The notes under the pieces were generated by a model. It searched no databases. It was not told the origin of the DNA and was given only the letters and a program-made list of their open reading frames with translations. DNA of 64,000 nt, from NCBI RefSeq assembly GCF_000006405.1, contig NW_003208915.1, positions 66,056-130,055 on the forward strand. Reading direction: 5' to 3'. Position 1 is the first letter of the stretch, and every line of letters begins with the position of its first letter. This stretch comes from Perkinsus marinus ATCC 50983. Its lineage: Eukaryota; Perkinsozoa; Perkinsida; Perkinsidae. Position numbers and translations under genes: made by a program. This document shows, piece by piece, positions 1,849 through 60,774 of the stretch.

Positions 1849-2883
1849 ATGATGAGGAATAGGCTACCGCCTGGTTGGGACATTAGGGTGGGGAAGAGGA
1901 AGATTAGCGGAGCGAAGTTATTGGAAATCAGGAATCAACATCGAGACCGGGCAAGTTCTATTACTTCAACGTACACACGCAGCAAGGGCAGTGGGAGTTC
2001 CCCTCGACTGAAGTGATGCCACCGAGTAAGACTCCCAGACTGTTGTTTCAAAGGCTGTTATGGTCCCGTTCAGCGAGAAGAAAGAGCTCATATGTCTACC
2101 GCATGCCGGAACTGGAGACAGCGCATGTACTGCATATTCTTAAGAAGCATAGGGGGGTAGTAGTGGGGGGGGGGGGGCTTGGTTGGGGTCATCCAGCAAG
2201 ACTTTGGAGAGAATCGTTTTACTCATCGGTCGTTATATAATCGCGTTGGCGGTATATGTTCGCTTTTTTCATAGAGATTTGCAGAAGCCGTTAAGAATTT
2301 CCCCAAAATTTTCCTCATAATTTCCATATTGTCACCAACATATGTGCATATTCTCCCTACACATAATTCAATTTTCACAGGAGTCAACTTATTTTTGGGT
2401 GTAGAATTTTTACGAATATATTTTAGTCTCGGAAACCTCGGTCGTGGAGAATCGATGGGGAAATAACACTACCAGTTGAGGAAGCTATAAAGGTAGTGTT
2501 GGTGTGAACGTTTTGGGACTACTGTCCGCTTAGGAATTAGCATTGATAAGGGAAGAAGTGGTAAGGCAAGAACCGAACGGGCTGGCGGCTATGACTAAGT
2601 GCTTCAAGGACAACGCTAGAATTGAAAGTGATTGCGGCACAGCTAAGCGAGGTGGACTGAAGTATTCGAAGTCGATGTGAAGGATAAGTTGATTTTTGGT
2701 AGGAGGCGACCTTGGCGAGATCGCTCGTGGAAGAATGCAGCCATCTTTTGAAAAAGTGGCGTTTGCGTTGCCCCCAGGGACATTGAGTCCGATTATACAC
2801 ACGGAATCTGGGGTAAGGCTCGGCGGGGCTTGGCATTGGTATTGTGAGCTGGTGAGGTGCACTTGATACTTCGCTTAAAGTGA
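1849..2883 (+). CDS. Pin1-type peptidyl-prolyl isomerase (WW + parvulin)
   Basis: Exons 1849-1887, 1932-2156, 2427-2492, 2534-2651, 2703-2812 and 2857-2883 give about 194 aa. The family isomerises pSer/pThr-Pro bonds. Residues about 6-38 are a WW domain (LPPGWDIR, then FYYFNVHTQQGQWEFPS across intron 1). The rotamase follows a 30-residue linker: AHVLHILKKHRG, SRKPRSWR (basic phosphate-binding patch), SDCGTAKRGG (catalytic Cys region), GGDLGEIARGRM, and SGVHLILRLK at the C-terminus with the conserved His. All splice phases agree. Introns are 44, 270, 41, 51 and 44 nt. The 270-nt one contains a copy of the dispersed CCAGTGT-type element (2249-2360, reversed). The start is one of two adjacent ATGs just before the WW domain. 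The linker could hide a further intron. Confidence 0.85.
2249..2360 (-). mobile_element. CCAGTGT-type element, copy a (partial)
   Basis: Reversed copy inside the 270-nt intron of the Pin1-type gene. Shares atatgttcgcttt, gaatttcc, and caccaacatatgtgcatatt with the other copies; its ends are decayed. Confidence 0.65.
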
Positions 2884-28264: not shown

Positions 28265-29054
28265 ATACACCCCTCCACATATTCTTAGCATAACCGGTTT
28301 TTCGACTCGTGCACAGCCACCACAACGAGTATCATCTTGCGGCTCAGGGAGGTATGTACTTATGCTTTACCTGATATGACCTCCAAGTTTCAGGGCCTAA
28401 CTCTTCGTAGTTAGTGAGAAGTCGAAGACCGGTAAAACGTTTTCTCCACATATTCTTAGCATACACGTGTTAAAATTGCGCCTCAAAATACCAACTTTTA
28501 CTCGGGGAGTATATCTATAACTCCGCTCCTGATCTAATGCTATACATCAACAGAAAGAGAATCGTTCATAATGATATCCCTCCACGTTTCACACTCATAT
28601 TTGGAGGCANNNNNNNNNNNNNNNNNNNNNNNNNNNNNNNNNNNNNNNNNNNNNNNNNNNNNNNNNNNNNNNNNNNNNNNNNNNNNNNNNNNNNNNNNNN
28701 NNNNNNNNNTGCCTCCAAATATGAGAGTGAAACATGGAGGGATACCATTATGAACGATTCTCTTTCTGTTGATGTATAGCATTAGATCAGGAGCGGAGTT
28801 ATAGGTACACTCCCCGAGTAAAAGTTGGTATTTTGAGGCGCAATTTTAACACGTGTATGCTAAGAATATGTGGAGAAAACGTTTTACCGGTCTTCGACTT
28901 CTCACTAACTACGAAGAGTTAGGCCCTGAAACTTGGAGGTCATATCAGGTAAAGCATGAGTACATACCTCCCTGAGCCGCAAGATGATACTCGTTGTGGT
29001 GGCTGTGCACGAGTCAAAAAACCGGTTATGCTAAGAATATGTGGAGGGGTGTAT
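28265..29054. mobile_element. 345-bp inverted repeat around a 100-N assembly gap
   Basis: Left arm 28265-28609 and right arm 28710-29054 are near-identical reverse complements (start atacacccctccacatattc). The Ns fill 28610-28709. Inside each arm the motif tccacatattcttagcata occurs twice, about 170 bp apart. This fits a transposon with long terminal inverted repeats whose interior could not be assembled, or a foldback element. A scaffolding artefact that joined two copies of one arm is also possible. No clear target duplication is seen. Confidence 0.7.
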
Positions 29055-29689: not shown

Positions 29690-31852
29690 TCTTCGATGAA
29701 TGCAATACCCCTGCCGCTTACCATGGGGGATCGGTGCCTCAATAACATCAGGGACGGCGGCTTTCTGCAGGGACGTTCTTCTGCCAGCTCTGAGGCTCTG
29801 CTTGGCGACCGCCTCCTTTTGCTGGACCGCGGGTGTCGTGGCGTCCTCAATGTCGAATGAGATACGGCGCTTACGGTCCTCTTGGAGAAGTCCGTCAATC
29901 AGGAGCATCGACTCGACCACCTAAGTCGTCAATAATGTCGATTTTCAAGGGGAGCTTTACTGACCTCAGATCTCATCGATTTTGACAGAGACGCGGTGAG
30001 CATGTGGACAGCACTATTGCGCTTCTTGTTCTGAACACAATACGTTGGTCCCTCCGCGCTAATCTTGGTGGTCTTACCTCAGGGGCCACGACCTTCTCGG
30101 CCTGTAGAGCAACCGAAGGATTATTCAACTTGCGTTCGTCCACCACTGCTCTGGTGCCGGAAATGATGTTGAACAGAGTGCCACCGAGGGCATACCTGAC
30201 AACAGACCGACACTAATCGTTGTTGCTATATGTAAATTATGAGAATGTTGATACCAGTGTGGGAAAACCTGCACATGGTCAACTGCACGTGTTGGTGACA
30301 ATATGCTAGTCTGAGGAGATTGTGGGAAATTTTTGTCGATTTCTGTACACTTTCACCAGAATTAACGAATCAGGAACTCCTGAGCTCAGCTGAGGGGAGC
30401 AAATATATACTTCAACACTGGGTTAAACCGATTCCGCTGTTTCCCCTGTACGACCCACCAGTCCACACTCTTTGCCTCGTCGAAGGTAAGGGAAGGGCTG
30501 CTCAGTAAACTGCGAATTTCCTTAGTCTCCCTGAGAACAGATTTCGCGACCTACCATGACTTCAGGCAAGACCACTTACGAGTTTTTCCCGTCCTCAGCT
30601 CCAGTGGCGAGGACTACTGAGTCCTGCATGAGCTCGCTAGCCGCCGGTGGGGTGCTCTGAGGGCCACGTTGTGATACGGGCAAATGATGGTATGAACAGT
30701 TGTTGTTACCGGAGTGGGAACCTTCCCGTCCCAAGTATTGAAGTACTCGAATATGGCCGCGTCACTGCACTTAGTGTCGGAGCATAGGACGGTTTTTGGT
30801 GACATGCCCAAATGAATCTGAGTGATATAAAGGAAGCCAATTAGCGCGACGTTGACGATACCTACCATGTGGGCTTTCGAGTGGAGAAATCTAAGACTGG
30901 TGACCAGCTGAGGGGCGATCTTCTGGAACAGAGGGAACCTATTAAAATCAACATCCCTCTGAGACGTCGTTGTCCTCATAGACCACCACCTCGTGATCAT
31001 GCTAGAGAACTCTCCTATGTAGCCCTGTTGGTCTGCTGCTGGTTGAAGGAGATCGACAAGGCGACCACCAGGCATGTACTGCATCAAGATGTTACTCCCG
31101 AAACTGTATACGCTTGTCATCGAGGCCCACTCTGAGGATGGCTCACTATATGTTCTTGACGTCCTCAGATTTCCGGCCAGATGCCTTGGGAACGACCATG
31201 GTGACACCACTGGTGACAGGGACTTTAGTGCCGTTCTCGTATTGAATGTCACTGACGTCGTGACCAAACCTAGTACGACACACCTAAGCTCGTGGACCTG
31301 TCACTGGGCTGATCTCACCCGTAGAGCACGTGGTGGTTTGGACAGGTGACGGTCTGACCAGGCTTAGCAGAACCTGAGAAAAGAAGTCGTAGTATTCACC
31401 GACAGGACCACATTAGTTTACCTATAGCAGCGCACTGGACCGTGTTGGTCTTTCCGAACCACATCTTCTCTCTGTTGAACTGGCCCAGCGTGTGGATCTT
31501 CCTCTCCTGGTCCGTGTCCACAGGCAGGGACACAGCCTTCAGGGCGTAGTCGTTCTTGTTGGAATCGGTCACTCGGAATACCACTCCATTGCGAGCTTGG
31601 AAAAGTCTGTGAAGGAAGTGCCAAAGGGACAGACCAAACTGGTCACCTTTCATGCAGGATAAACGGGCCCTTGGGGATGACCAGTGAGACCGGCTTGTTG
31701 TGATGTAACTGAACGGTGAGCAACACGTGTAATAACGCGGTCGACCCAAGGACCACTTGGTCCGACTCCGAGGACCAAATGCTCACCTGGTGGTCGAAGC
31801 CACTGAGACTGTCGATAAGAAGAGCTGCTAAGGCAAGGGTGATCCGCGACAT
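29690..31852 (-). CDS. Signal-peptide-bearing kinase-like protein, likely pseudokinase
   Basis: Exon 1 is 31852-31647 (hydrophobic start MSRITLALAALLIDSLSG, a probable signal peptide), then a 40-nt intron, then exon 2 31606-31422 with NGVVFRVTDSNKNDYALKAV, a kinase N-lobe with the ATP-site Lys, and FNREKMWF as helix C. Further exons give NILMQYMPGGRLVDLL (hinge) near 31090, SLRFLHSKAHM near 30880, and, after a 46-nt intron, IHLGMSPKTVLCS at about 30785-30825. That last block sits where HRDLKPENVLL should be, so the catalytic Asp is Gly. No DFG is evident. YALGGTLFNIISGTR (30115-30200) and LIDGLLQEDRKRRISFD (29850-29915) match later C-lobe segments. A copy of the dispersed element lies in the intron at 30254-30421. 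Middle exon borders are approximate. Confidence 0.6.
30254..30421 (+). mobile_element. CCAGTGT-type element, copy b
   Basis: 168 bp with both ends visible: ccagtgtgggaaaa at the left and ttcaacactgg at the right, which are inverted repeats. Interior: gcacatggtcaactgcacgt, gggaaatttttgtcg, gagctcagctgagg. It lies in an intron of the minus-strand kinase-like gene. Confidence 0.8.
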
Positions 31853-32689: not shown

Positions 32690-34980
32690 ACCACGCAGTG
32701 TACAGTCCGTGGCTCCTGTCCCGTTGGTGATGGTCAGAGTGTTGTCGAACCCCACACTTGCTATTTTCGGTCTCTTATTGCCGAAGTCTGTCATCAAAGC
32801 CACGGCACTAACAATAAGGAAACCCTAGGTACGGTCAGACCAGGAATCCTATCACTGGTCCAGTGGCCGAACCAGAGAGACATACACATGATCAACTACG
32901 CGTATTGACGACAGTCGTAAAGTTCCGGTGAAATTTCCGAGAATTTTTGTTGATCTTCGTATATCTCCGGAGTGGACTTTCATAATGTAGCTTTGGAAAC
33001 CCCCTGCGGAACTGAAGTTCTATTTCAACACTTCCAGGCGTTTACCGGCAGCTGTCACTGTGTGCAGATGGTCCGTATACGAGAGGTCGCTGAGCAGTAG
33101 AGCGCGTGTCCCATATGGCAACAGTGCCGTCCTCGAAGCCCGCACCGATGTACACTGGGGAGGATCATCCCCAATGGACCAAGGTGACCAAGGCTCGTAC
33201 TTGTGTCGGGAGACATATTCACACTATTGGCTTCTCGATGATGCATTTCGCCAGGAGGGGTCCATACCGGAGTGCATGATCTTAGGGACCTGATGATCAT
33301 CATGACAGTACTTACCTGGACTGGGCGTGTGGTACGTGTTGACCGAAAGGTCCTATGCTGGGCCCAAACTGGACAAGGCCATAAACAACACATGCTACGA
33401 CATCATTACTATAGCCGAGAGTTACGGCAACTCCGCAGGCGCGCGCAACGATGAGCACATTAGACCTATTCACATCGAGTGCACGACACTATCGATCTCG
33501 TCTATGTCTCCTTTCTATCACCCCAAGAGGACTCTTGGACCCCAACACTCACCAGATAGAGACATTTCCACCAGATGAGCCAACGGCAAGAAGTACTCCA
33601 TCATCCTGGTGGCCACAGCTAAGGGACAGAGCCTAAGGAGTATTCAATGAACGCCTTCCTCAAGGAGTCTTCTTACATTGCCAGGCATAGCATCTGTCCA
33701 TCTCGGACCACCCAACGTAGCCTTACTACTATCTCTGTCAACCTATAAAGGGCGTACTTTTTTCCTCTGGCAAATTCGGAAAATCGGCGTTTTTTTGAGC
33801 TGAGACTTTAATAGAGCATGGTTATGATAACTAGCTACTGCATATTGAATTGAAACTGTCATTTTCGAAATCGTTACTGATATATAGAGCTAGCTGTCTC
33901 CCCTCAACTGGCCCTTACGTCCCACACTCTAACACAGTGTTCATTACTCGAACCACTGAGGAAAGTTGTCGAACTCGCCGCGCAGACCGTTCGAATAGTC
34001 CCTGTGAAAGCCATCTAGACCAGGACTGATTGACCTCACAGTTTACCTGCTTGTGGATACCATCTGCGCTCTCGGGCATTGTCGAGTGTCGGATCATGAT
34101 CAAAGGACATGACCTGTAAGCTCTGATCGTTGGAACCAGTAACCAAGACCCTGCTTTCTGGTGACCACGACATGCAGTATCTGCCCAACCCTAGGGGGTC
34201 CTCATCCTGCTGTATGAGCTTACATCGAGCCAGCGTGGTACTTGTCCCGTCTGAGGAGCTCTATAGTGTCCCCATCCTCTATGGCTTCCACATCACATAT
34301 TATCAACGACCGACTGTTGGTGCCTACATCACACCAGGAACAGTCTAAGGCCTAGGGACCACGGCGAGGGCAGGGCCAGGAGGGGCCCTGCGTACTGCAT
34401 GCGCCTAGGGCCCGAGATTGCGAGGAAACTATAAGCAAGGCTCTGCATAGGGCCTTGATAATGACGGCCACTTATAGACAGCAGGTATTCGTACACCACG
34501 GAATTGAAGTCGAAGTGAATTCCTTGAGGAATGTACGTAGAGGCGACATGGTATGACTATAATTATGTCTTGTGGCACTTCTAAATCGGAAGTTGGGAAG
34601 TTTTCAATCGACTAGATATGATACAGTCGTGCCGTAGATGAGATCGGCGAGTGATCGCGAACATAAATCCAAGGAAAATGTGGTCATGCCTACCAATGCC
34701 AAGATAACGGCCACAAGGACTGAAGGCGACACAGCGTATGGCCTGCGTGTCCTCATATTGCCAGATCTGAGTGACTTGTATGCGATCCTGGACTGGTCCA
34801 CTGCTAACATAGGCCGATGCTCCTCCTTGTAGACCCAAATCTGGATCCAGATAGTATCCTCGAGAATCACCACAGAGGCCCTCTACCTCTCTGCTCGCCT
34901 GAACGGCGTCGCGCCTTCGCTTCGGGGATCGGTGCTCTGGGAGGTGTACCATGAAGGCTTGGAGAGGATCGATGATGGGC
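32690..34980 (-). CDS. WD40-repeat protein
   Basis: Minus-strand exons read in order as beta-propeller blades: about 34980-34694 (ending AIRCVAFSPCGRYLGIG), 34340-34110 (DCSWCDVGTNSRSLIICDVE, then CMSWSPESRVLVTGSNDQSL), about 34020-33905 (GTIRTVCAASSTTFLSGSSN, then CVRVWD), about 33620-33555 (DDGVLLAVGSSGGNVSIW), about 33155-33060 (YIGAGFEDGTVAIWDTRSTA) and about 32810-32695 (IASVGFDNTLTITNGTG). Spacing and the G-x-x-D/N-x-x-V-x-I/V-W signature support a seven-blade propeller used as a scaffold. Which WD40 subfamily is unclear. A dispersed element copy (32872-33037) sits in one intron. Exon borders are approximate. Confidence 0.6.
32872..33037 (+). mobile_element. CCAGTGT-type element, copy c
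   Basis: 166 bp, more diverged: ccagagagacatacacatga at the left, cgagaatttttgttgatctt inside, caacacttccagg at the right. Inside an intron of the minus-strand WD40 gene. Confidence 0.65.
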
Positions 34981-34984
34981 CTGG

Positions 34985-35152
34985 CCAGTGTGGGAACATC
35001 CGCGTAGTAAACAACATGTGTTGTAACAATGAGGAAAATAACAGAAGTTTCGGGAAATTTATTGTTGGTTTTTTTTGCACTTCTTCACCAATTCGGGTGC
35101 GAATTTTCATAACGAGGAATGAGCTCAGTCGAAGGGAGGTGCTCACCTGACC
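34985..35152 (+). mobile_element. CCAGTGT-type element, copy d
   Basis: Left end ccagtgtgggaacatc; interior acaacatgtgttgtaacaat, cgggaaatttattgttggtt, gagctcagtcgaaggg; the right end is lost. On - it forms almost the whole of an intron (gtgagcacc donor, ggccag acceptor). Confidence 0.75.
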
Positions 35153-36800
35153 ACTACTGCTTCCTGTGGGGGTTCCCATACGTGGTCCTGCCATACACCG
35201 ACTGACCACTCCTTGCCCAACATAACTCATCATCTCACCAATGGAGTCCGCGACCGTTCGGCTGATATTCGTTTGCCTTTCTGAGGAGCCCCACTGCCAC
35301 GCAGTCGTCGACCCAACAGAAACCTAGATCTCCAAAATGTGTGAGCCCAGCAGTAAGGTAAACACCTGTCGGCTGTCCCTCACTGACTCTCTCTCGTCCG
35401 AGTGGTCGGCGGTCCTTCTAGCCGGCTCGGGCTCCCATGGTATGTCGATCCTTACCCCCTTAGGGAATACCACTGGCTTGCCCTCGCTCTGATCTGTTCC
35501 ATGAGTACTATAGTACACCGCGACCATAGCGAGACTAACTTCTGGAGTTCGTGTCGGGTGACTCCTGAGCCTCCACAGGGGTGAGGATGGGCCGGTCTTC
35601 CCTTGGGCCTGGACTCGGAGGTGGACCAACACGCTGACCGTTCACTGGCTGGCCTGGTGCCTGACCAGTACAGTCTTCAGTGTGTACACTGTCGAGTCCA
35701 ACCTCAGCTTGGTCCACGTCTCTAGCCAGTGATAGAGGAACACTTGGTGACCGGGGACTGCCGGTGGCCTAGAACATGGAACCACCGACCACACGAGCGT
35801 AGTGCTGCGGTGCCTCACTGTGATGGTCGGAGAGTACTTATGGTTGAGGCCTCGGCCAATGAGATCGTCAAGAGTATCCTCTCCAGTGCAGCCCTCAGGG
35901 ACGAGCATCCCACCTGACCCCAGCATGGTCCATTGACAAGACCCTTCCTCACAGTCTTCTTCTGTCCAACCCTCGCTGCCGTACACCTCCATGAGCCTGG
36001 GTACGTAACTGCGCCATAGTCCGTACCTAGATGCCGCTTGTCACGACTACATAGCCGTGAGTCGTCCCCACCGTCCCCCAGCCCGGCCGTGCCACTCCTG
36101 CCGGTACTTGTCTAGCGTCGGGACAGTAAGGGTCTCATGCAGCTGAGCGTATCTGTGGTCCAGACTAGCATTGCTCTATTCTAGGTAGACCCACTCAGCG
36201 TCAGAACACAGAGGTTGTATTTTCTCTAGTACTTGGACCATGTCCCGGACCAACTAAAATCGAACCAACCAAAGTTGTAGCGCTGGTCTCCATTCAACTC
36301 CCAAGACCAACTGCTTTCTCATGAATTGGTCCATCAGCTCCCTCACGGACCTTCTCGTCTTCCTCAGTGAGAAATAGGAGCTCCAGAAACTCCTGAGTAA
36401 CACGCCTTCGGTATGGTCCACCGAGTGGCCCTACTTGTCTATATACTCTGAACTGTGCAGCTTCCTGATCTGCCGTCGAAGTGGACGAGTACCTGGCCTT
36501 GGTCGCTCTGTGGCCTCCCATGGGAGCTACCTACAACTTCCTCACGAGTCTCAACAGGTCATCCCAACGCCCAGCCATGACCACCGAACGGAAGTACTCA
36601 ACCTAAGGACGGTTCACTCCGAGCCGATGGCAAGTGTTGACTTACGGCATCGTTAGCATGGGGAACACAAAGTTTTGTATTGGTCTCGGTCTCTAGGGCT
36701 TGCATGGCCGAGTACAGCCCGTGGTCGTGCCTATCCGAATGAAGAGCGATTTCTGACCCCATTATCAACAGTATGGGAATATATGGTGGCTTTCCTTGGT
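34985..36800 (-). CDS. Unidentified minus-strand gene
   Basis: Coding-looking pieces on -: about 36775-36640 (GSEIALHSDRHDHGLYSAMQ, then ALETETNTK), 36460-36310 (RVTQEFLELLFLTEEDEKVR), 35992-35720 (EVYGSEGWTEEDCEEGSCQW), 35717-35540 (PPPSPGPREDRPILTPVEAQ), 35600-35360 (VYYSTHGTDQSEGKPVVFPK) and 35250-35154 (MMSYVGQGVVSRCMAGPRMG). It may be the 5' part of the WD40 gene: the exon after the element-bearing intron (34985-35153) continues into that gene's first block. No domain recognised in this part. Confidence 0.35.
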
Positions 36801-36920
36801 AGAACTTGACAGTTTATATACGAATTAGGGTAGAAGTGCTCAGAAACCAACAATAATTTCCCAGAATTTCCATATAGTCACCGACACATGTAGTCGATCA
36901 TATGCATATTTTCCCCACTG
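36769..36920 (-). mobile_element. CCAGTGT-type element, copy e
   Basis: Reversed copy: cagtatgggaatatatgg, agaaaccaacaataatttcc, gtcaccgacacatgtagtcg, ttttccccactg. It lies next to a minus-strand coding block. Confidence 0.75.
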
Positions 36921-38075
36921 CATTTGAAACCGCAGTAGCCACTCACAAATATCGTAGCATGAGTAGCACTACTGCCTTGTCATCGCAACCTGGCTGACCG
37001 GACCACCCGCGGCCCCCTTCTGCTAGGTCAGCTGTAGTCATTGAACTAGTTCGAACTATACCACTGATGTACAACTAACACGTCGTAACTCGGGCCATTG
37101 TGGTTGGTCTACAGTGAGGCAGCCTCCTATATCAGACTGGCGAGCCTAGGTTCACTGTACTCGATCAAAGTCCCTGTATTGATCCTGTTGATTGTATGAT
37201 ATTGACAAGTCAACGCTGAGCACATGTATCATTCGAAAATGCATGAGTGTACTATTCACATGTCATTAATGTTGCTAACATCTGTGCTGGACCACCGGGA
37301 TCATTCCTTCGTAGGGCATGACCGCGGCAGATAACCTTCGCAGTGGAGTAGGACACTCCTAAGGATTCGAGTAGGAAACCCTACTAGAAATAGGCTCGTT
37401 GCCCCTTGAATTCGGAGTAGGGGACTCGGTCTGAGCTCTCGGGAGATCGACTCCTCCAAGAAAATACACTCCGAGCTCTCTATCTCTGAACTCGTAGGCC
37501 TCGCAGTAGTAAAGCGAGGCGAGTCTAAGAGGATCCATCGACCCTATATCTGACCAGAGATGCGGTGGCCGGGGATCGAACCCGGGTCGTGGCACTGCGA
37601 CCGTGACTTACACAACGTTGTCTCCAAGGAGCTGCATTGTGATATCAAACGAACCTTGGAATGCTCTGAATTCCACATATGCTAAAATAAAGTTAGTGTA
37701 GAAGTATAATCTAAGACCACACCGGTGTAGGAGGGCAGACGACTGGCTCTATTGATACCACTTTTTCGCTTCTTCTCGGAAGCAGTCCCAGCAGAACATG
37801 GCCAAAAAGAGTTGCTATTCCAGACTGGGACCACATGGTATCTTGCTAGGGTCCTTGCTTGTTCCACTCTTATATTTTCTTGGACCAGGGACTCGGCCCT
37901 TAACGCCACCTTCCCCATTCACGGTCCACTCGGGGGAAGCCTTAGAAGGCGACATATGCTGCTCGCGAGGCGCCGCCGCAACCAAGTGCTAAGAATATTA
38001 TAGTTTACTATTGTAACAACGCAAGGCCACTGAGACTAAGGACAACACAATGCCCGACATGGGGCTCATGACATC
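36921..38075. other. Intergenic, with a tRNA-like fragment
   Basis: No gene seen, apart from a minus-strand tRNA-like sequence at 37560-37634. Confidence 0.4.
37560..37634 (-). pseudogene. tRNA-like fragment with perfect T arm
   Basis: On - the T arm is perfect (CCGGG TTCGATC CCCGG), followed by CCACCGCA as a 3' acceptor half. Upstream is a weak A-box-like AGCTCCTTGGAGA, but no matching 5' acceptor strand or normal anticodon arm is found. It is either a decayed tRNA gene or the head of a tRNA-derived SINE. Confidence 0.4.
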
Positions 38076-42900: not shown

Positions 42901-45000
42901 AGTCTCTTGGGAGTGTTGCTGTGGCGGCAGTGCTTAGTGGTAGGTGTCCCGTGTTGTCGAGGCGGTGGATCGACTTGACAGACACGATGGAACAATTGGC
43001 GCGGTTGGCGATGTTGGAGGCTAGTGCTTCGCGAGGGAAGGGGAGGGCCAAGGTGGTGACACGAGGGATGGTGACACCTCCGAGAGGGTCGGCTGTAGGT
43101 GTTGGGTCGGCTGGATGATGGTGGTACACTGTGGGATCAAGACACAGAAGAAGATGCGGTCAGGTGATTGAGGAGGGTTCTGGGTTTGATAATAGCAAAC
43201 TGATGATGCAGGCTTTTGATGGAGGAGAATACAGTTAATCTCAGCTTACGGATGCTGAACGACTATAAAGTGCTGGACTAGTGTGGGTGGCTGGCTGGCA
43301 TCGATCGACTTAGGTCTGGCAATACGCCAACTCGCATCGCCTTGAAGACGCTGTAATGGATACTGCGAAAGGGAGTGGTGGTCTTGATGGTCACCGTGTG
43401 GTCGATCCTCAGGCTCTGTCACAGTCTTTGGTGAATAAAGTGGTGGGACTACTGTTGTGATGGTTACAGAAACTATAGTGTGTTAGAACACGTTTGAGGA
43501 GAGTGTGGGGGTGCTGTTGTGGAAGTGTCTTGTCCACGTGGAAGCACTGCAGTTGGTGGACCTGCCCCTCCTCATAGGCCACTGCACTGTGAGTCTCTCC
43601 GGGACTGGTCTCGGTCAGTGGACGTGGTTTAGACAGTGTTGGACCAAGTGGGCGAGCGAGACCTCGAGGTCAAGCATGTTAGAAGGCAGGTAGTAGGGCA
43701 AGGTCGGTTGAAGTTACCCTAGTGTTGGTCAGTATTGGAATATATGTTCGCTTTCCTCAACTGAGCTCGGGTGTTCCCTCACCCATAGGAGTTTACATAC
43801 AAATTCGGGTACAGGTGTACAGAAACCAATAACAATTTTTCCGAATTTCCTCTCAAAATTCTCGAATTGCCACCAACACATGCAGTTGGTCATGTGCACG
43901 ATTTCTAACACTGGTGTTGGTTACAGGAGGCTCTTGTTATCCACTATTTTCACTGTATTATGAAGCATAGTGAGAAGCTGAGCGCCAAGGCGGTGTTCGA
44001 AAGTATGCGAGACACTGGCCTTATCTCTGGCATACTCCACTATCTGGCAAACAAGGAGTGCACGCCTGACCTCAAGGTGAGGCTCGGCTGGCTCGGTCAT
44101 CTCACGCGCAAGGAATGTCTTCTGGTGACCGTATGGTTGTTCCACCCAAGTATGTGGCATCGCTCGGGCCGTGACCTTGACCATTCAAGTGACTAGGCGG
44201 TGGGGATGGAGGGTCTGTCGATGCTGGCCGACTCTGAGGATTTCCAATGTGACATGCACCGTTTTCTGCCACGTCTGGAAGACATTGAGGCTCTCAGGGA
44301 GATAGAGAAGTGAATACTGCATTGATTCATATGGTGTACGCTTTAGTTCAGGGTGGCAGAGGTGGTCCTACAGGAGGGGCTTTTGAAGCGATCCGACGTC
44401 AGACCGCTGTTGGATCTGTTCGCCAAATGTAAACGCATGAACTGATTGTTGTTTTCATGCAGTATAGTTCCGAGATGTGTTGATCAATGCCCAGTGGTTG
44501 GAAGGACAGTGATGGAAGGGATATTATCGACGCTAAAGGAAGACTTCTACTGCCCACAGTACTCCACGCACGCAGTGGTTAGTGGACGCTGACTCCTCCA
44601 TAGATCGTCGAGTGTTGGACCGGCGTTAGACCTCTGTGGACTTGAGCAATGTTGTTGAGGATAGGTTTGATCGGTAGGGGTGAGTTTGCTATTTCAGGTT
44701 CACCCCATATGCTCCTAAACTAGCGTTTTCCGTACTCGTGGAATTCACATCCACATCGTCATCCTACGTGAAGTCATCAGTATTCCAGGAATATATGTTT
44801 GCCCTCGGAAATGGGAGGTGGTCGAGATGGTCCCCTTGATTTTATGGTAGAATCTCGGGGGGTCCTAGGAGGACTCGGAAGAGATGAAGCTGTCTTCCTT
44901 GTACTTGCTGCGACCAATGAGCAAACAAGAGTTCTATGTGATCAGAATTAGGCTTAGAAGAGTAAGGTGAGCACTGCTCATTTGAGGCTGCTCACTGAGC
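42900..45000 (+). CDS. Unidentified multi-exon gene
   Basis: Exons judged from frame and splice sites: 42921-43090 (RRWIDLTDTMEQLARLAMLE), about 43636-43689 (TVLDQVGERDLEVKHVRRQ), 43928-44075 (HSEKLSAKAVFESMRDTGLI, then SGILHYLANKECTPDLK), about 44200-44310 (MEGLSMLADSEDFQCDMHRF), about 44362-44437 (VVLQEGLLKRSDVRPLLDLF) and 44464-44580 (VMEGILSTLKEDFYCPQYST). The helix-rich content suggests a scaffold. The intron before 43928 consists largely of a dispersed element (43730-43914, reversed). May be continuous with the next gene. Confidence 0.4.
43730..43914 (-). mobile_element. CCAGTGT-type element, copy f
   Basis: The most complete copy at 185 bp, reversed: cagtattggaatatatgttc at one end, cacgatttctaacactgg at the other; interior agaaaccaataacaattttt, caccaacacatgcagttggt. 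It sits in an intron of a + gene (donor at 43690, acceptor about 43927). Confidence 0.85.
44779..44815 (-). mobile_element. CCAGTGT-type element, end fragment
   Basis: cagtattccaggaatatatg followed by tttgccctcgga matches only the right end of the family, reversed. Confidence 0.4.
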
Positions 45001-45789: not shown

Positions 45790-47400
45790 TACGGAAGTGG
45801 AGATCGACCAATCTCAGTTAGATGAGCTCCACCACGAGATGGCGAAGGTCAAAGTAGGTCCTTCTATCTGTCCTAGGTGGACTTATTGTCCAGGCAGCTC
45901 TCGAGACCGCTTCCAAGACTGGCTCGGGGACCATATCGTACCGTGGTTTGGAGGGCCCCGCTTTGGGCCGGTACCTGTTAGAGTTGCAGCGGAAGGAGGT
46001 CAGTCTGTTGAGGGCCCAACAGCGGAAATTGGAGAGCGAGGAGGACCAGCCGGAAGATGCCCATCCAGCCCGACCACTCACCGCAGCTGAGCTCCACGAG
46101 GCCTCAGTGGAGGAGGTAGTGGCGTATTTGGGGCGAATGCAGGGGACTGAGGACGAGGTAGAGCGAGGGCTCATCGCGTTGAGACAGAAGATTGATAATA
46201 GCGGCTATCACTATCGAGATAAGGCCTTGGAAGGTAAATGGAGACGGGTGGACTCTGTAGTGGGAGGTACTTGTTCTAATAGTATTACCCTTTTGGAGGG
46301 ACCTTGAAGGAAGTGAAATTAGAAGTATGGGAAAATATGCACATGGTCAACTACATATGTTTGGGGACAATGAATGTGAGAAGAATTCTCTTTGTTTTTA
46401 TACACTCCCACCTGAACTTGCATGTGAACTTCTACAATTAATGAGAACAATTTCAAGATTCAGCAGTGAAAATACATTCCAACATTGGACATTGTCGGGA
46501 GCTGATACTAAGTTCACTCAGATGAGCTTTTTCAGACACTCTAGCGGCGATTCTGGAGGCTTCTGGGGCGGCTGATAAGGTCCGGTTGAAAGCAGTGGCC
46601 CTCCTAAATGCGATGGAGGAGCAAAGAGAGGACCCTAGGCGGTAGTACACTAGAGGCCCTCGCTGGTTCGGAATGCCTTGGCCCAGGCCCTCCCTTCTGA
46701 GCCGACGCTTTGCGCCTATACTGGCGGACCACTGCATGAGGGGACCAGCGAAGGGAGGGGACGAGACGTTGATGAGGGACACTGCTGAACTGATGACTGA
46801 TTGGATCAGCAAGCAAGGGGACGATGGTGTTGATGATGTAGGGCTTGTGGAATTTCGTGGCGCGCGGTCATTTTAGCTCCTATTTGAAACTCGTGGGCAT
46901 CCATCGCCTTGTTCTATCTTCAGCCCCTCCGAGACTGTACCATAAGTTGCCTGCTGAGCTCCTTCCTCTACCATGGTCCGGACCACCTGCCCTGTCTGGA
47001 GCTGCTAGAGGCCCTGTTCTCGGTAGAGACCGTCACTGATAATGTGGACCTGTGGACCGCCATGGCCAGAGACCTACGGGTCCTGCTCGACACCAAGGTC
47101 AATACAGAGATCCGACTGGGCCGATTCGCCTATGGTACGCCTGTGCCCCTCGGGTCATGGTCATCCTTCTTCCCTTAGTGGTCACTGAACTGACCGCGAC
47201 ATGGAGTGGTGGGGGCGACTTGATCCTCCGACTGGTCGAGCTAGGAGTCCATTCAACATTGCGTCAAATGCCACTACTGGAGGCTGAGACCAAGGAAGAG
47301 GCCAAATGGGCCCGGGACCAGGTCCAATATCGCCAATGTGGTCGCCATTACTTTTTCTGGGCTCTCAGGTCGAGATAGCGTTAGCCGCCCTTGAAGGTAG
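45790..47400 (+). CDS. Unidentified multi-exon helical gene
   Basis: Exon about 45790-45852 (IDQSQLDELHHEMAK), a 45-nt intron, then about 45898-46235 (GLEGPALGRYLLELQRKEVS, RKLESEEDQPEDAHPARPL, EVVAYLGRMQGTEDEVERGL). After an intron containing a dispersed element (46324-46488) come 46538-46640 (LAAILEASGAADKVRLKAVA, then LLNAMEEQREDPRR), about 46680-46830 (RDTAELMTDWISKQGDDGVD) and 46909-47130 (CTISCLLSSFLYHGPDHLPC, then LELLEALFSVETVTDNVDLW). The style fits an armadillo/HEAT-like protein. No family assigned. Confidence 0.4.
46324..46488 (+). mobile_element. CCAGTGT-type element, copy g
   Basis: 165 bp: agtatgggaaaatatgcaca, tggtcaactacatatgtttg, ending acattccaacattgg. Lies in an intron of a + gene. 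Confidence 0.8.
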
Positions 47401-52095: not shown

Positions 52096-54875
52096 ATGCC
52101 CCCTCGCAAGAAGCCGGCCCCCACTACCACCAGGCGGAAGGCTCGAGGGCTGCCGAGGTGTCTCGACGAGTTGGACATGGACCAGGACGATATCACCAAG
52201 TACTTCAAGCTCAAGGCTGGTGCCCCCTGGACTTCCGCGGAGGTCGAGCTCTTGAGACGGAGGATAGTCACGGCCGATAGGAAGATTGCAACGTGGGCCG
52301 GTCATTTCGTGGCGCGCGGTCATGGACGCTGCTGCTCTGTCAGGCTCCAGTTGGAGAAGGAAAGGTTGCTCAATATCCTCCACGAGGTCCCCGAGGAGCT
52401 CCTCGACCCAGACGGGGGAAAGCGGGCCTCGCCCTCCAGACCCGAAAGCGACGGGGTCATAGATCTCTCACAAGACATGCCCTCAAGTGGTGTGGTCAAG
52501 TCGGAGGGCCAGTGGCCAGAGAAATGCCCCTGGGAGGACCGGGAGGCGGCCACGGTCCGAATGATGGGCCGGATCAGCATGTTCTGCATCGACGACCTCT
52601 TGGAACCGTCGGAGCGGGTCCACATCGATGAGGTGGGGCCATCAAAGCAGTGTGGGAGATATGCACATGATCAGCTACATGTGTTGGTGACGATATGAAA
52701 ATTGTGAGGAAATTTCGGGAAATCCTCTCTGGTTCCTGTACACTTCGTTTATAAATTTCTGTCATCGGTGAGGAACCTCTCGAGCTTAGCTGAGGAAACC
52801 AAATATGTCCTTCAGGTGGCTGGAGGAGGGTCAGAGCCATCTGGACAGGGCGGCCCCAACATAGAGATACCTCCACGGCCGGTAAGGTCCCTTCTGGACC
52901 AGACCGTATGCCTCCCTTTGATCAGGATGGGTTGCCGAGCCCATTCCCTCGAGTCTTGGACAAACACGGCCCGTTTTTGGGGAAATACCCATCGGTGCCG
53001 GGTTTCTTCGATGACTTTGATGGCCTCTTCGTACTGTCCCCGACAGAGCTGGTCGCGACCATAGACGAGCTCGAGAACTTACTCGCTACCTACCTTAATC
53101 CGCTCGTTTGTGAGTGCTTCTGTTGGACCTCTTTGTTGACCGACAACGCTGAGATGATCAGATACCAGGAAGGACCTCAGCCGGTGGACTGACTACTCGG
53201 TGGAGTTCCTCATTCGCCTTCATGAGGGGGTGAGGAGGAACAAGGCAAGGGGGGTCTCTATCGAGGCTGTGCAGCGGTACCTCAACGAGTTGTTCTCCAA
53301 CTACCCTCGTCCTAAGCCGGACCAGTCCGAGGAGGAGCGCTCATCATCTAGACGACCACTACTGGAGACCAGTGGACCGCCTCTGGCCCGGAACATGGCT
53401 GAAACGATGGACTTCGCTGAGCAGGTGGAGCCCTTAGCCCCCGAGGGCCAATTTGATGAAGTCCAGGACATAGACCAGACCGAGGTGATGCATGAAGACG
53501 ATGTCCCTCCTTCCACTGCTATCGTCGAGGCGATACCTTTGACTCCCAACGAGATGGTCACGGATGATGAGGGACCGGTACATCTGCGGTACAGTGAGGC
53601 CACCACGGCGACTTTGGCACAGGAGAGCTGTAGTCAGGACGACCTCATGCAGTTTTATCCTATCATAGAGGTCAGTGGTGACGACATGTCCGAGCGGGGG
53701 GACGGGTGGTCAGGACCGCTACCTTCATTGCCAAGTGATGATGATGATATTCAGTGTCTGTCTGGGGGCAGTCCTCCGACCTCCACGCCGGAGAAAGAGG
53801 TGGACCAGAGTGGGCCGGATGCCGCGAATCGACATGAGTGGCTATCCTCTCTTCCACTTGTAGAACGTGTGAAAGCTCTGGGGGCCATGAGGAGAGGCTC
53901 AGATGTGAGCCGCTGGGCCAATGGGACCTGGAAGGTGCCCCGAGTATCGCTGGCCAGCCTGGGTGTTCCGGAATCCTCGGCTGACCAGACGACCCTTCCG
54001 TACGAGGATGATGTGCCAGTAGTGGAAGCGGTTAACGATGATGACTTGCTGTTGGAGGACAGCATGGCCGATGCGGTCCTGGTTGGTGGCGCCTCGCAGG
54101 GCGCGTTGGGTGAGACGGCCGCCAGCGAAAGCCCTACAGTGTCACCGGACCAGATTGCCACAGGTGGTAAGGCGGATACGCAGGCCGGACGATCTGTGTT
54201 GGGCTTAATGGACTGGGAGAAACTTGGAGACGACGAACTGAAGCGGTGGATGTCCTTCTTTGGTCTCAAGGTGGTCTCTGGCACCTCTAGTCGAGGGAAC
54301 ATGGTCAGGACCCTCACGGACATCGCTAGGTAGGGACCTTGGCCGTGGCGCTCTTCCTAGTCCAGTGGTCCACAGATACGTCGAGAAAGGCGCGGCCATG
54401 AGGGTGGACGAGGAACAGACTTCTATCGAGGCCCCGAGGAGGAAGCGACAGAGGAGGTCCCCCGCTAAGAAATCCAAGGAAGGCATGTGTGGGTTTCAAC
54501 TGGCTTTTGCCCCTGACGTTGTTGTTGGTCTTAGAGAAAAAACGAGAAGCTGAGGAAAAGCGGAGGGCCAATAAATTGGCTCTCGTCCACGCCATACGGA
54601 AGGACACTGAAATGTGGCAACGGATGCTCCTTTTTGAGACCATCGACCTCACTGACCTCTCGACACGTCTCAAGAACCAGGTCGGTCCTGTATGGTATCG
54701 CGGAGGAGCCCTCATGTGTCAGGACGACTCTATTGTGTGTGATACAGTTCTCCTACGGGAGATGCTGGAAGAACAAGGTGTCCAATTCTGCAATACCCTC
54801 CAGTCAATGACCCAAAGGGCTACTCGAAAACCGAGGAAGGCGACGGCATCTGTCCGACGACAAGCTCGATCGTAG
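52096..54875 (+). CDS. SLX4-like structure-specific endonuclease scaffold
   Basis: Exons 52096-52651, 52816-53109, 53162-54329, 54361-54482 and 54535-54875 give 826 aa in continuous frame. The C-terminal half has the two SLX4 landmarks. One is a SAP/helix block WEKLGDDELKRWMSFFGLKV with GNMVRTLTDIAR. The other is the C-terminal SLX1-binding domain (MWQRMLLFETIDLTDLSTRL, then LLREMLEEQGVQFCNTL), comparable to the L-Y-x-K-I-L-x-Y-x-P-L-x-L pattern of the family. SLX4 binds the SLX1 nuclease and cuts branched DNA. The N-terminal half is acidic and low-complexity, as usual. Oddities: the intron at 52652-52815 is a dispersed element, and the last intron needs a GC donor (54483) to keep frame. Family call is from motif pattern alone. 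Confidence 0.55.
52648..52815 (+). mobile_element. CCAGTGT-type element, copy h (acts as an intron)
   Basis: Starts cagtgtgggagatatgcaca; interior gatcagctacatgtgttggt, gaggaaatttcgggaaatcc; ends aaatatgtccttcag. The intron 52652-52815 of the SLX4-like gene begins within the left end (T|GTGGGA) and ends at the right end (TTCAG). Element and intron therefore coincide. Confidence 0.8.
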
Positions 54876-57381: not shown

Positions 57382-58717
57382 TCACTCACCGGAGAGAACC
57401 ACAACGGTGGGAGTCCGTCTGTTATCACTATTTCTGACACTATACTTGTGATGAAAGTAAGTCTGGATTTCCTCAAATGTTTTACCTTTCGTTTCGGGAA
57501 CTATAAACAATACGAATACAACCATGATGAGACATATTCCAGCAAAAAGCCAGAAGACTCCGTAAAAAGTGATAGCTTCCCGGAGTTGATCCAGGAAATG
57601 AGTGACGATGAAGGAGCACAACCAGTTGACCATAGTAACTAAAGAAGCAGCCAGACCTCGCACTTCGTCGGGGAAAAGTTCGGCCATGATCAACCATGGT
57701 ATTGCGCCAACACCCAGAGAAAAAGACGCGATGTAACAGTAGGCAGAAGTGATGGCCAACCATCCAATATTGTTGATACCGGACACCTCGTTAAGATAGA
57801 AAAAGACGCCTTCACATACTGCAGAGATGCACATTCCAGAGGAAGCAGAGACGAGGAGAATCCTCCTACCCAGTTTGTCAACAATCCCAACCGCGATGGC
57901 GGTCACGCCAACTGACACAGCCATGACCGTCAATGCTACCTCATCCTTATTGTCGATGCCCGCGGCTTGAAAGATAGAAGTTTGGTAAAAAATGATAGCG
58001 TTGATGCCAGAGAACTGCTGCAGTACTTGCGACATGATACCAATGAAAACTTGCATCCGACATCTATTCAATGCTTTTAGAGATGTCATGACGGATCCCT
58101 TCTCTTCGCTGTCTCTTTTGGACTTGATAGCCTCCAAGGCCATGAGCTCAGCTTTTACCACAGGATCTTCCGCATCACCTCCACGCAGTTTAATAACGAT
58201 CCCCTTGGCTTCCTCGATACGTGACTTTTCAGCTAACCAACGGGGAGATTCGGGTGCGAAGAACATGCATATTCCCAGCAGAGCCGCCGGGATGATGTAT
58301 ACGAAGCTGAGTGTTCGCCAGTTACAGAATGTTCTTGATGTGGCTTCTGGATCGATCGACCCAGCTTGGGTGCGGAAAGCCAACCCAAAGAGATAAGCCA
58401 GGAGGATGCCGATAGTAATCCCAAGCTGATTGCAAGCACCGAAAATACCGCGGTATTTGGTGGGAGCAACTTCACCGATGTAAGTGGGCACGCTGAAGGA
58501 GCTCATGCCAAGGGCAATGCCGACGATGACACGAGCCACGATAAGCTGCCACGCGGTGCGCGCTAGACCGATCCATAAAAAGGCCAATAGAAATAAAGGG
58601 GATGCACCAATGAGGCTCCATTTACGGCCAATCTTCTCGTTGACGGGGCCACCGCCAAGCGCCCCGATGATAGCACCAATATTGACCATAGAACCGAATA
58701 AGGAAGCATCATTACTA

Positions 58718-60596
58718 CAGCATTTCCCGGTCATGTTTCCGACTTGCGCACTGTTATTTCCGACTAACTGCATGCGAACATCCGATGCATCATAACAATT
58801 TCCGACCCGCACTCATTTATCCGACTCGGTCAAAAGCAATATCCGATATACCGCATGAAAATTTCCGACTAGGGTCATCCTAATATCCGCCCGATTCGTG
58901 CATCCCAAATATCCGACTGTCATTCAAATATCCGATAGCCTACATTCAAATATCCGCGGGCGCGCGCTTATTCAAAAGAATCTTCTGCGCAGAAATCAAA
59001 TATCCGACAAAAGCATGAATTATCCGACCAACTCAAAACGACTAAATCAAGTAAACTCATGTAAGACCACATGACTCCGTGACTCGATACGAGCCACAGC
59101 TGACACATTATAATGACTAGGATATAGGAAAAAGAGTTCGAACAGAGCCAAGTTGGCTCAGCCAACCACATCGTTCGTGATTCACATGTCCTCGCCATTG
59201 AGAGCTCTAGGAACCTCGGAAGTCAATACGTGAACGAGGCTATTCGAAACAGTTGCCACGGTGACCGCATCCACAGCCTGGGGACAAAACGATAGAAGAA
59301 CACGGGATCTGGCCTCTTGCAGAGACTCTCCGTCGTGTGGCTGAACTTGTCCGTGCTCAGATATCATTCTCTTCAAGGCCGATTTCAAGGGCGAGAAGCA
59401 ATTTTCTATTGGATTTAAAGCACATGAATAAGGGCTCACTCTCTTATAGGCCACATTCAGGGCGTCGCATGTGTTGTCAGCAGTAGCATGACAAGGAGCA
59501 TTGTCATAGAGTAGGCAAAAAGGCCGACCATCCGGTTGGTTGGCCAGTTTGTCAAGCACATCACGTAGAAAAGCCTCGAAATCTTCCTTTTTACATCCCC
59601 CTAGCATTGACTGCCAAGCGAGGATCCCACCCTCGTTGCATACAGCACAGATAAGGGTAACGTGTTTCCCACGCTGATTAGCGCAGGTCTTCCTAGCTCG
59701 TTGCCCTTTCGCCGAACGACCCTTAGATCTACAGGTATACAAGTTATACCCTGTCTCGTCAATCCAGACAAGACGATATCGGCCAGCGTTCACCTGAAGC
59801 CACTGAGCGAAATCACGCCTCTTCACCTTATTCACTTCACTGTTTCTTGCTTCGGGTATCAGCTGAAGTTGCTTCATGCTGATAAGCCTACCTTCCAAAG
59901 CTCGAGCAACAGTGCTTGTACTCAGCTCGACGTTCCACTCACGAGATACTTCGTCAGCGATTTGCTTCAAAGTCAAGTCAGCATCCCTCCCAACCAGGTA
60001 TGCCATGAATTCTATCATAGGCTCGGTACACTTCTTATTTCTTGGGCCCCCACGTGGCCGCGTTTCTTCCCTTTGAGACTTTACAATGCGGTAGGCGGTG
60101 TCAGGTTTCACACCAAGGTTTTTTGCTGTAACCTGGTAGTGACTACCAGGTAGTCGTCTCCGTCTCGAGCTGCTTTGATGATGGCCTTACGCGCCAAAGA
60201 GGGGATGCTCTTACCTCCTCGAACGCCCATTAACGGAGTAAGAAAGAAAAAAGACTAACTGTTCACATGCACTCCACTCGACGTCTTTGGATAATTCATG
60301 CTTTTGTCGGATATTTGATTTCTGCGCAGAAGATTCTTTTGAATAAGCGCGCGCCCGCGGATATTTGAATGTAGGCTATCGGATATTTGAATGACAGTCG
60401 GATATTTGGGATGCACGAATCGGGCGGATATTAGGATGACCCTAGTCGGAAATTTTCATGCGGTATATCGGATATTGCTTTTGACCGAGTCGGATAAATG
60501 AGTGCGGGTCGGAAATTGTTATGATGCATCGGATGTTCGCATGCAGTTAGTCGGAAATAACAGTGCGCAAGTCGGAAACATGACCGGGAAATGCTG
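58718..60596 (-). mobile_element. Tc1/mariner (IS630)-type transposon with 308-bp inverted repeats
   Basis: 1,879 bp flanked by TA on both sides (58716-58717 and 60597-60598), the target duplication of the superfamily. The terminal inverted repeats (58718-59025 and 60289-60596) appear identical along their 308 bp. Each carries about a dozen short WWTCCGAC/ATATCCGAC motifs spaced roughly 20-25 bp apart, likely transposase-binding subrepeats. One transposase gene lies inside on -. The near-identical ends and the undecayed host exon point to a recent insertion. Confidence 0.95.
59182..60111 (-). CDS. IS630/Tc1-type DDE transposase
   Basis: 309 codons from the first Met of the open frame. A helix-turn-helix part (DLTLKQIADEVSREWNVELS, STVARALEG) is followed by a DDE_3 catalytic core: WIDETGYNLY (Asp118), LLYDNAPCHA (Asp203) and LNPIENCFS (Glu236), with 32 residues between the second Asp and the Glu. 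The true N-terminus is longer. Upstream, a frame starting at about 60230 (MGVRGGKSIPSLARKAIIKA) would join VTAKNLGVKPDTAYRIV if a 14-nt palindromic segment near 60130-60145 were absent. As it stands the protein is therefore frameshifted at its N-terminal DNA-binding domain, unless that segment is spliced. Confidence 0.85.
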   Translation of the reverse strand: MKPDTAYRIVKSQREETRPRGGPRNKKCTEPMIEFMAYLVGRDADLTLKQIADEVSREWNVELSTSTVARALEGRLISMKQLQLIPEARNSEVNKVKRRDFAQWLQVNAGRYRLVWIDETGYNLYTCRSKGRSAKGQRARKTCANQRGKHVTLICAVCNEGGILAWQSMLGGCKKEDFEAFLRDVLDKLANQPDGRPFCLLYDNAPCHATADNTCDALNVAYKRVSPYSCALNPIENCFSPLKSALKRMISEHGQVQPHDGESLQEARSRVLLSFCPQAVDAVTVATVSNSLVHVLTSEVPRALNGEDM

Positions 60597-60774
60597 TAGT
60601 TTTGAGGACGAAGAAGGATGATCCCTCACCGATCGGGATATGCCTCCCATCGGTGGTTGTGACGTTGTCTCTCATAGTGTCAATGGCCGGTCCAGAAAAC
60701 CCCAGAGACAGACCGAAGAGTAACGCACCGAAGAGGGATGCTGAGACGGACAGAATAGCACAGGTATGTTTCAT

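Follow-up and report, generated by a model that had tools for sequence, protein, structure and literature searches.

Inverted ends that start with CAGTG, combined with 8-bp target duplications, are typical of the hAT superfamily. Perkinsus marinus harbors a family of short repeats that resembles the MITEs of this superfamily in its small size, its inverted ends starting with CAGTG, its 8-bp duplications, its high copy number and the presence of hAT-domain genes in the same genome. This family also recalls several systems in which repeats reside in introns. In carrot, MITEs located within introns alter the length of these introns and generate intron-length polymorphisms (PMC5422474). The introners of Micromonas, Aureococcus and Symbiodinium are non-autonomous repeats that have terminal inverted repeats (TIRs) and a target duplication and that lie in introns; they create the intron, the splice sites being found in the element, in the duplication or in the adjoining exon (PMC9860276). 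Finally, Amoebophrya, which is also an alveolate parasite, carries repeats with inverted ends in its introns, and its introners are defined among introns with non-canonical splice sites (PMC7789003).

The window analyzed in this work is a stretch of 64,000 nucleotides of P. marinus DNA (Table 1). The initial annotation had recognized in it eight copies of one repeat, in both orientations, and had interpreted them as a family of introners in a perkinsid-like genome, element and intron being one and the same. The repeat is borne out at all eight places and in both orientations: blastn with the copy at 52648 recovered the other seven (E 8e-16 to 0.03) and a profile HMM gave eight hits in the window (E <= 1e-4). 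The genome is indeed that of a perkinsid, since the gene around 52648 matches P. marinus Pmar_PMAR009981, with 100% identity over the longest block. The ends of the consensus (5' end CAGTGTGGGAAAATATG, 3' end CATATATTCCAACACTG) are inverted as stated, 16 of 22 bases agreeing, including 15 of the first 17, as counted by eye. Furthermore, we found 8-bp target duplications, which the initial annotation lacked. The element is short (~180-185 bp), has inverted ends and is too small for a transposase gene, as expected of a MITE, and its 8-bp duplication is that of a hAT-like MITE; from the type of its ends and duplications, we take the family to be hAT-like. By contrast, the equation of element and intron is not supported. 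It is highly likely that the repeats form an old non-autonomous hAT-like MITE family that lengthens pre-existing introns and is not their source. This kind of element is already known and the family itself is new: no account of it was found in the literature searched for Perkinsus introners and for P. marinus transposons and MITEs.

Table 1. MITE copies and element-bearing introns in the window and at loci outside it (window positions, except for L loci).
Feature	Position	Strand	Host gene or intron	Remarks
MITE family	Perkinsus marinus	both orientations		~180-185 bp; inverted ends and 8-bp target duplications
Truncated MITE copy	2249..2375 (ends approximate)	-		blastn and profile HMM
MITE copy	30254..30416	+	antisense in intron 30196-30458 (- strand, 263 nt) of a protein-kinase gene	P. 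marinus protein P0011 (also P0013, P0014); splice sites 58 and 42 nt from the element
MITE copy	32872..33033	+	antisense in intron 32808-33045 (- strand, 238 nt) of the WDR47-like gene	P. olseni protein P0017
MITE copy, right end degraded	34985..35150	+	antisense in the WDR47-like gene; intron 34899-35146 (248 nt)	frame-keeping junction, frame alone
MITE copy	36769..36925	-	sense in intron 36731-36946 (- strand, 216 nt) of the WDR47-like gene	P. chesapeaki protein P0018; upstream exon short in this model (~16 residues)
Intact MITE copy	43730..43913	-	between HSP90 and the 45839 gene	perfect 8-bp duplication ACCAACAC on both sides
MITE copy	46324..46490	+	sense in intron 46234-46535 (302 nt)	P. 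marinus protein P0012; splice sites 90 and 45 nt from the element
MITE copy	52648..52812	+	SLX4-like gene	5' inverted end preserved (CAGTGTGGGA)
SLX4-like intron holding the element	52633..52815	+	183 nt, GAG|GTGGGG..CCTTCAG|GTGG	spliced alignment of P0001 (Pmar_PMAR009981)
Downstream GT-AG intron	52882..52925	+	44 nt	spliced protein alignment
Element-bearing introns	L037		232 and 428 nt	
Element-bearing intron	L035		232 nt	
Element-bearing intron	L004		257 nt	
Element-bearing intron	L072		645 nt	
Element-bearing introns	L033 and L040		454 and 325 nt	the same intron in two copies with ~97% identity
Element-bearing intron	L034		~334 nt	P. olseni protein; joined by hand from two adjacent intron calls
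Element-bearing intron	L009/L070		252/249 nt	ab initio

The copies that span nearly the whole model number 63, haplotype duplicates included, and come from the window, from 129,975 readable bases of contig C233 and from 48 short loci (L labels). A perfect 8-bp target duplication flanks 9 of them, versus 0.4% of shuffled (mismatched) pairs, and at least seven of the eight bases agree in 17 of 63, versus 5.1% of shuffled pairs. The nine perfect cases represent eight distinct duplications, two of the copies being one haplotype pair. The median pairwise identity is 79% in a 65-row alignment of copies, and the family is therefore not a recent burst. It is present genome-wide: each of three element queries had 40 matches scored, out of 1,040, 2,710 and 1,415 first-look candidates. 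Moreover, seventeen profile hits (including partial ones) in ~194 kb of readable sequence suggest, as a rough extrapolation, several thousand copies in the genome. The hAT dimerisation domain was detected above cut-off at 14 places in the P. marinus genome and in none of 14 control genomes. The difference from hAT-superfamily MITEs concerns the autonomous partner: no hAT element with the same ends was found in the ~1.1-1.2 kb flanks of one (C25) of these 14 sites. Next to several copies, there are head-to-tail repeats of the final ~45-70 nt of the element, mostly spaced ~56-67 nt apart (L003 3-471, L006 868-1399, L007 1296-1477, C278:97981-98504, C289:108129-108340 and C217:643521-643799), as small satellite arrays grown out of the element 3' end.

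The window also carries other repeated structures. Two inverted arms of 317 bp, 99% complementary and 1,263 nt apart, are located at 58709-60605; the coding sequence between them resembles, on visual inspection, that of a Tc1/mariner-type transposase. Two other arms of 395 nt, 98% complementary with nothing between them, occupy 28265-29054 and are possibly an assembly artefact, since the 100 N of the window (28610-28709) fall there. A 30-nt tandem repeat at 25692-26321 encodes a repeated PVHPVERGPG motif in a predicted protein.

Each of the eight window copies had been assigned to an intron or to the immediate vicinity of coding blocks. An intronic location is retained for six of them (30254, 32872, 34985, 36769, 46324 and 52648), whereas at 43730 the intron call is a weak, ab initio one and the copy at 2249 is reached by no ab initio gene model. 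P. marinus proteins place the copies at 30254, 46324 and 52648, a P. olseni protein that at 32872 and a P. chesapeaki protein that at 36769. The copy at 34985 is placed by frame alone because the proteins of relatives disagree on the junction (34881-35113 for P. chesapeaki P0018, 34937-35226 for P. olseni P0023) and no P. marinus WDR47 protein was found in the second and third protein searches. This reversed copy had been described as spanning nearly the whole intron; the frame-keeping junction gives a longer intron (Table 1), and an acceptor adjoining the left end of the element (GGCCAG|GCCC) leads to a frame that stops at 34867 unless another intron follows. Other introns of the WDR47-like gene are also long in the alignment of P. 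olseni P0017 (33290-33552, 33743-33918 and 34324-34693; 176-370 nt). The profile found no copy of the element in these three introns, and other MITE families may be involved there.

If element and intron were the same thing, about 0 nt should remain once the element and a single 8-bp duplication are subtracted from the intron length. This leftover was calculated for 14 element-bearing introns, placed by P. marinus proteins (10), by proteins of relatives (3) or by frame only (1); L056, a haplotype of L037 with the same outcome, and L009/L070, known from ab initio prediction only, are not part of this set. Thirteen introns leave 39, 48, 51, 68, 78, 79, 92, 127, 135, 139, 234, 261 and 452 nt, and several of these values correspond to an ordinary intron. 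Indeed, 38 element-free introns from five of these genes have a median length of 47.5 nt (IQR 45-51) in protein alignments, introns below 35 nt being dropped and one intron being counted in two alternative forms of 49 and 154 nt; the published median for P. marinus is 49 nt (PMC7789003 Table 1). In contrast to the situation described in carrot (PMC5422474), host introns of ~47 nt become about five-fold longer through a single insertion. The splice models are based on annotation or proteins and the aligner allowed only GT-AG introns, other sites being invisible to it; with this reservation, P. marinus, whose introns are 99.3% GT-AG (PMC7789003 Table 1), differs from Amoebophrya.

According to the introner interpretation, the element would carry or recruit splice sites at its ends, enter exons and thereby create introns. 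TIRs and target duplications are also found in published introners (PMC9860276), six of the eight window copies are intronic, and the 183-nt SLX4-like intron, with its acceptor at the 3' end of the element, consists of the element plus 15 nt and has a leftover of ~7 nt. However, the 13 other introns do not coincide with the element and its duplication, the intron-sized remainder speaking against this interpretation. Furthermore, both splice sites are located outside the element in 12 of the 14 introns, unlike those of the introners described in PMC9860276. The consensus has a GT close to the 5' end in both orientations. Whichever way it is read, however, AG is missing from the final 17 bases at the 3' end, and among the eight distinct perfect duplications only GTGAGCTG and CTTCAGTG contain an AG. 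Judging from the consensus ends and the duplications, the family neither carries splice sites nor regularly recruits them. These data, together with those on the paralogue and on the empty sites described below, make an introner family very improbable.

One locus allows a direct before-and-after comparison. The intron of the L004 gene (P0006; C141, C267), which reaches 271 nt in the C267 copy, contains the element, whereas the paralogue (P0009; C266, C316) has an element-free intron of 46 nt at the same position and in the same phase (TTTGT|GTAAG..AG|GTACTT), with flanking exons that are 85-89% identical between the paralogues. The intron is therefore older than the element at L004, the sole locus with an element-free comparator; this is an outcome that the initial annotation had itself named as incompatible with its proposal. 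The element has thus not created at L004 an intron position that element-free relatives lack, and this also counts against introners. In the homologous stretch of C233, no element-free site was found, and the seven window copies compared, all but 2249, lie there in aligned blocks with few gaps. The stretches compared within window positions 29098-54307 have an inverted counterpart at C233:~580800-606000 that is 94.5-96.2% identical and in which these elements are present as well. The two haplotypes thus seem to have been assembled separately.

At L037, the target duplication is the old donor itself (GAA|GTGAGCTG) and the leftover is 48 nt, which indicates that insertion took place at the donor of a ~48-nt intron, the 5' splice site being duplicated in the process. 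At positions 803-994 of this locus, twin splice sites flank the element, the donor being present twice. Twin splice sites also flank the element at L009/L070, where the duplication includes the CAG|G of an acceptor predicted ab initio. At L040, in a manner similar to that seen at 52648, the acceptor adjoins the truncated end of the element, and 141 nt of non-element sequence are present on the donor side.

The copy at 52648 is the lone exception in the leftover test. Of the two splice sites that had been assigned to the element ends, the acceptor does adjoin the right end (52815), whereas the P. marinus protein puts the donor 15 nt upstream of the element, at 52633. The donor proposed inside the left end (CAGT|GTGGGA, first intron base 52652) had been thought to keep the frame. 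In the frame test, the frame after this donor stays open only when the 44-nt intron downstream (Table 1) is retained, and removal of that intron leads to a stop; the reverse holds for the donor at 52633. As this intron is the element plus 15 nt, either an old intron was shortened by deletion or the intron is new. In the latter case, the family would be an ordinary MITE family of which a single copy hit an exon of SLX4 and became an intron, its donor being GAG|GTGGGG in the exon upstream and its acceptor having formed at the eroded 3' end. The P. marinus lineage would then have gained an intron through a single introner event, in a family that otherwise invades existing introns. The leftover, too short for a former intron, agrees with such a gain. 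Moreover, the first 15 nt of the intron (GTG GGG CCA TCA AAG) extend the open frame of the exon as V-G-P-S-K, which resembles by eye the VDGPST found at the same point in P. olseni.

Data from P. olseni point in the opposite direction. P0005 is a 'partial' protein of 367 aa that lacks an initial M. Its contig measures 1,299 bp, and 198 nt remain for introns over a span that includes, in P. marinus, three short introns and the element intron. Provided that the fragment fills its contig end to end, a total of 196-200 nt has, in the resampling, a probability of 0.084 with four introns, versus 0.003 with three and 0.020 with two, and this arithmetic favors an older intron at 52648. Furthermore, P0005 and P0004 differ by two residues right at this point (GPST-DT-SGDN versus GPST-SGDN), a difference of the kind expected from an alternative splice site, and the last ~9 nt of the element 3' end and the target duplication are not recognizable, as after a deletion. 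The number of residues between the anchors PS and DGLPSP, counted by eye, is 28-30 in the P. olseni orthologues versus 31 in the P. marinus model. Aligned alone, the P. olseni SLX4 protein P0002 gave the junction 52687-52925, with a donor inside the element; this stretch is poorly conserved and the alignment was not relied on. It is thus suggested that the intron at 52648 is older than the element, and we consider a gain at this site unlikely. The deletion that would have shortened the old intron may also have removed the end of the element and its duplication.

The distribution of the family was analyzed on 59 distinct copies: each was excised together with one duplication, and the resulting empty site was scored ab initio. 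Forty-five sites were intergenic, 13 intronic and one exonic, versus 302, 80 and 218, respectively, for 600 random points, i.e. a depletion of exonic sites (P = 8e-10). In simulations, an excision error of 1, 2 or 8 nt in an exon made 75-84 of 150 exonic points look intronic, and the test therefore gives weak support only. Nevertheless, 59-67 of these 150 mis-excised points still scored exonic, whereas only one of the 59 empty sites did, which speaks against introners that enter exons. Nor is the intron share of non-exonic sites in favor of introners, being equal to that of the control (13/58 versus 80/382, P = 0.86), with a finder that misses about half of the supported cases: of the 13 copies located in introns by proteins or by frame, it scores 6 as intronic by our count. 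This finder, which uses explicit intron lengths, predicted exactly 21 of 32 protein-aligned introns, some of them from its training set. It replaced a first ab initio gene finder, dropped for having missed the WDR47-like gene, with which 51 of the 63 copies were intergenic and 12 intronic. Our conclusions rest on the spliced alignments of P. marinus, P. olseni and P. chesapeaki proteins.

The family could also be a specialized intron-lengthening MITE with a target preference for introns or their vicinity, a possibility that is compatible with the explanation retained here and that we view as rather unlikely. In the window, six intronic copies out of eight exceed the ~21% expected from the intron share of non-coding DNA, as worked out here from PMC7789003 Table 1 (binomial 0.0016; 0.025 with a share of 35%), and two duplications, those of L037 and L009/L070, lie on or at a splice site. 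However, both flanks are coding for 13 of the 58 non-exonic distinct copies versus 59 of the 382 non-exonic control points (P = 0.18), and outside the window only 9 of 51 copies were scored intronic ab initio. The intron excess of the window may result from an intron preference or from local gene density.

The scenario that we favor for this MITE family is the following. A hAT-type transposase presumably pasted the copies, each insertion duplicating the 8 bp of target now seen at both ends. Insertions would have targeted intergenic DNA and pre-existing introns of ~47 nt, and those in exons, hardly seen among the empty sites, were probably lost by selection. When an element enters an intron, the old donor and acceptor would remain outside it, and the longer intron is therefore presumably still spliced, whatever the orientation of the element. 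In this way, introns would grow from ~47 to ~215-300 nt or more. A splice site may later be brought up to an end of the element by deletion, and this is how the copy at 52648 is best read.

The leftover length provides a cheap way of separating an introner from a MITE located inside an existing intron. The present case also calls for caution with introners that are read from sequence: in a genome whose introns measure ~47 nt, any MITE insertion gives an intron that seems to be mostly element. Furthermore, the ability of an 8-bp duplication to copy a splice site, as at L037, is a plausible first step towards introner behavior. Finally, these data suggest that some unusually long introns of Perkinsus originate from a single MITE family.
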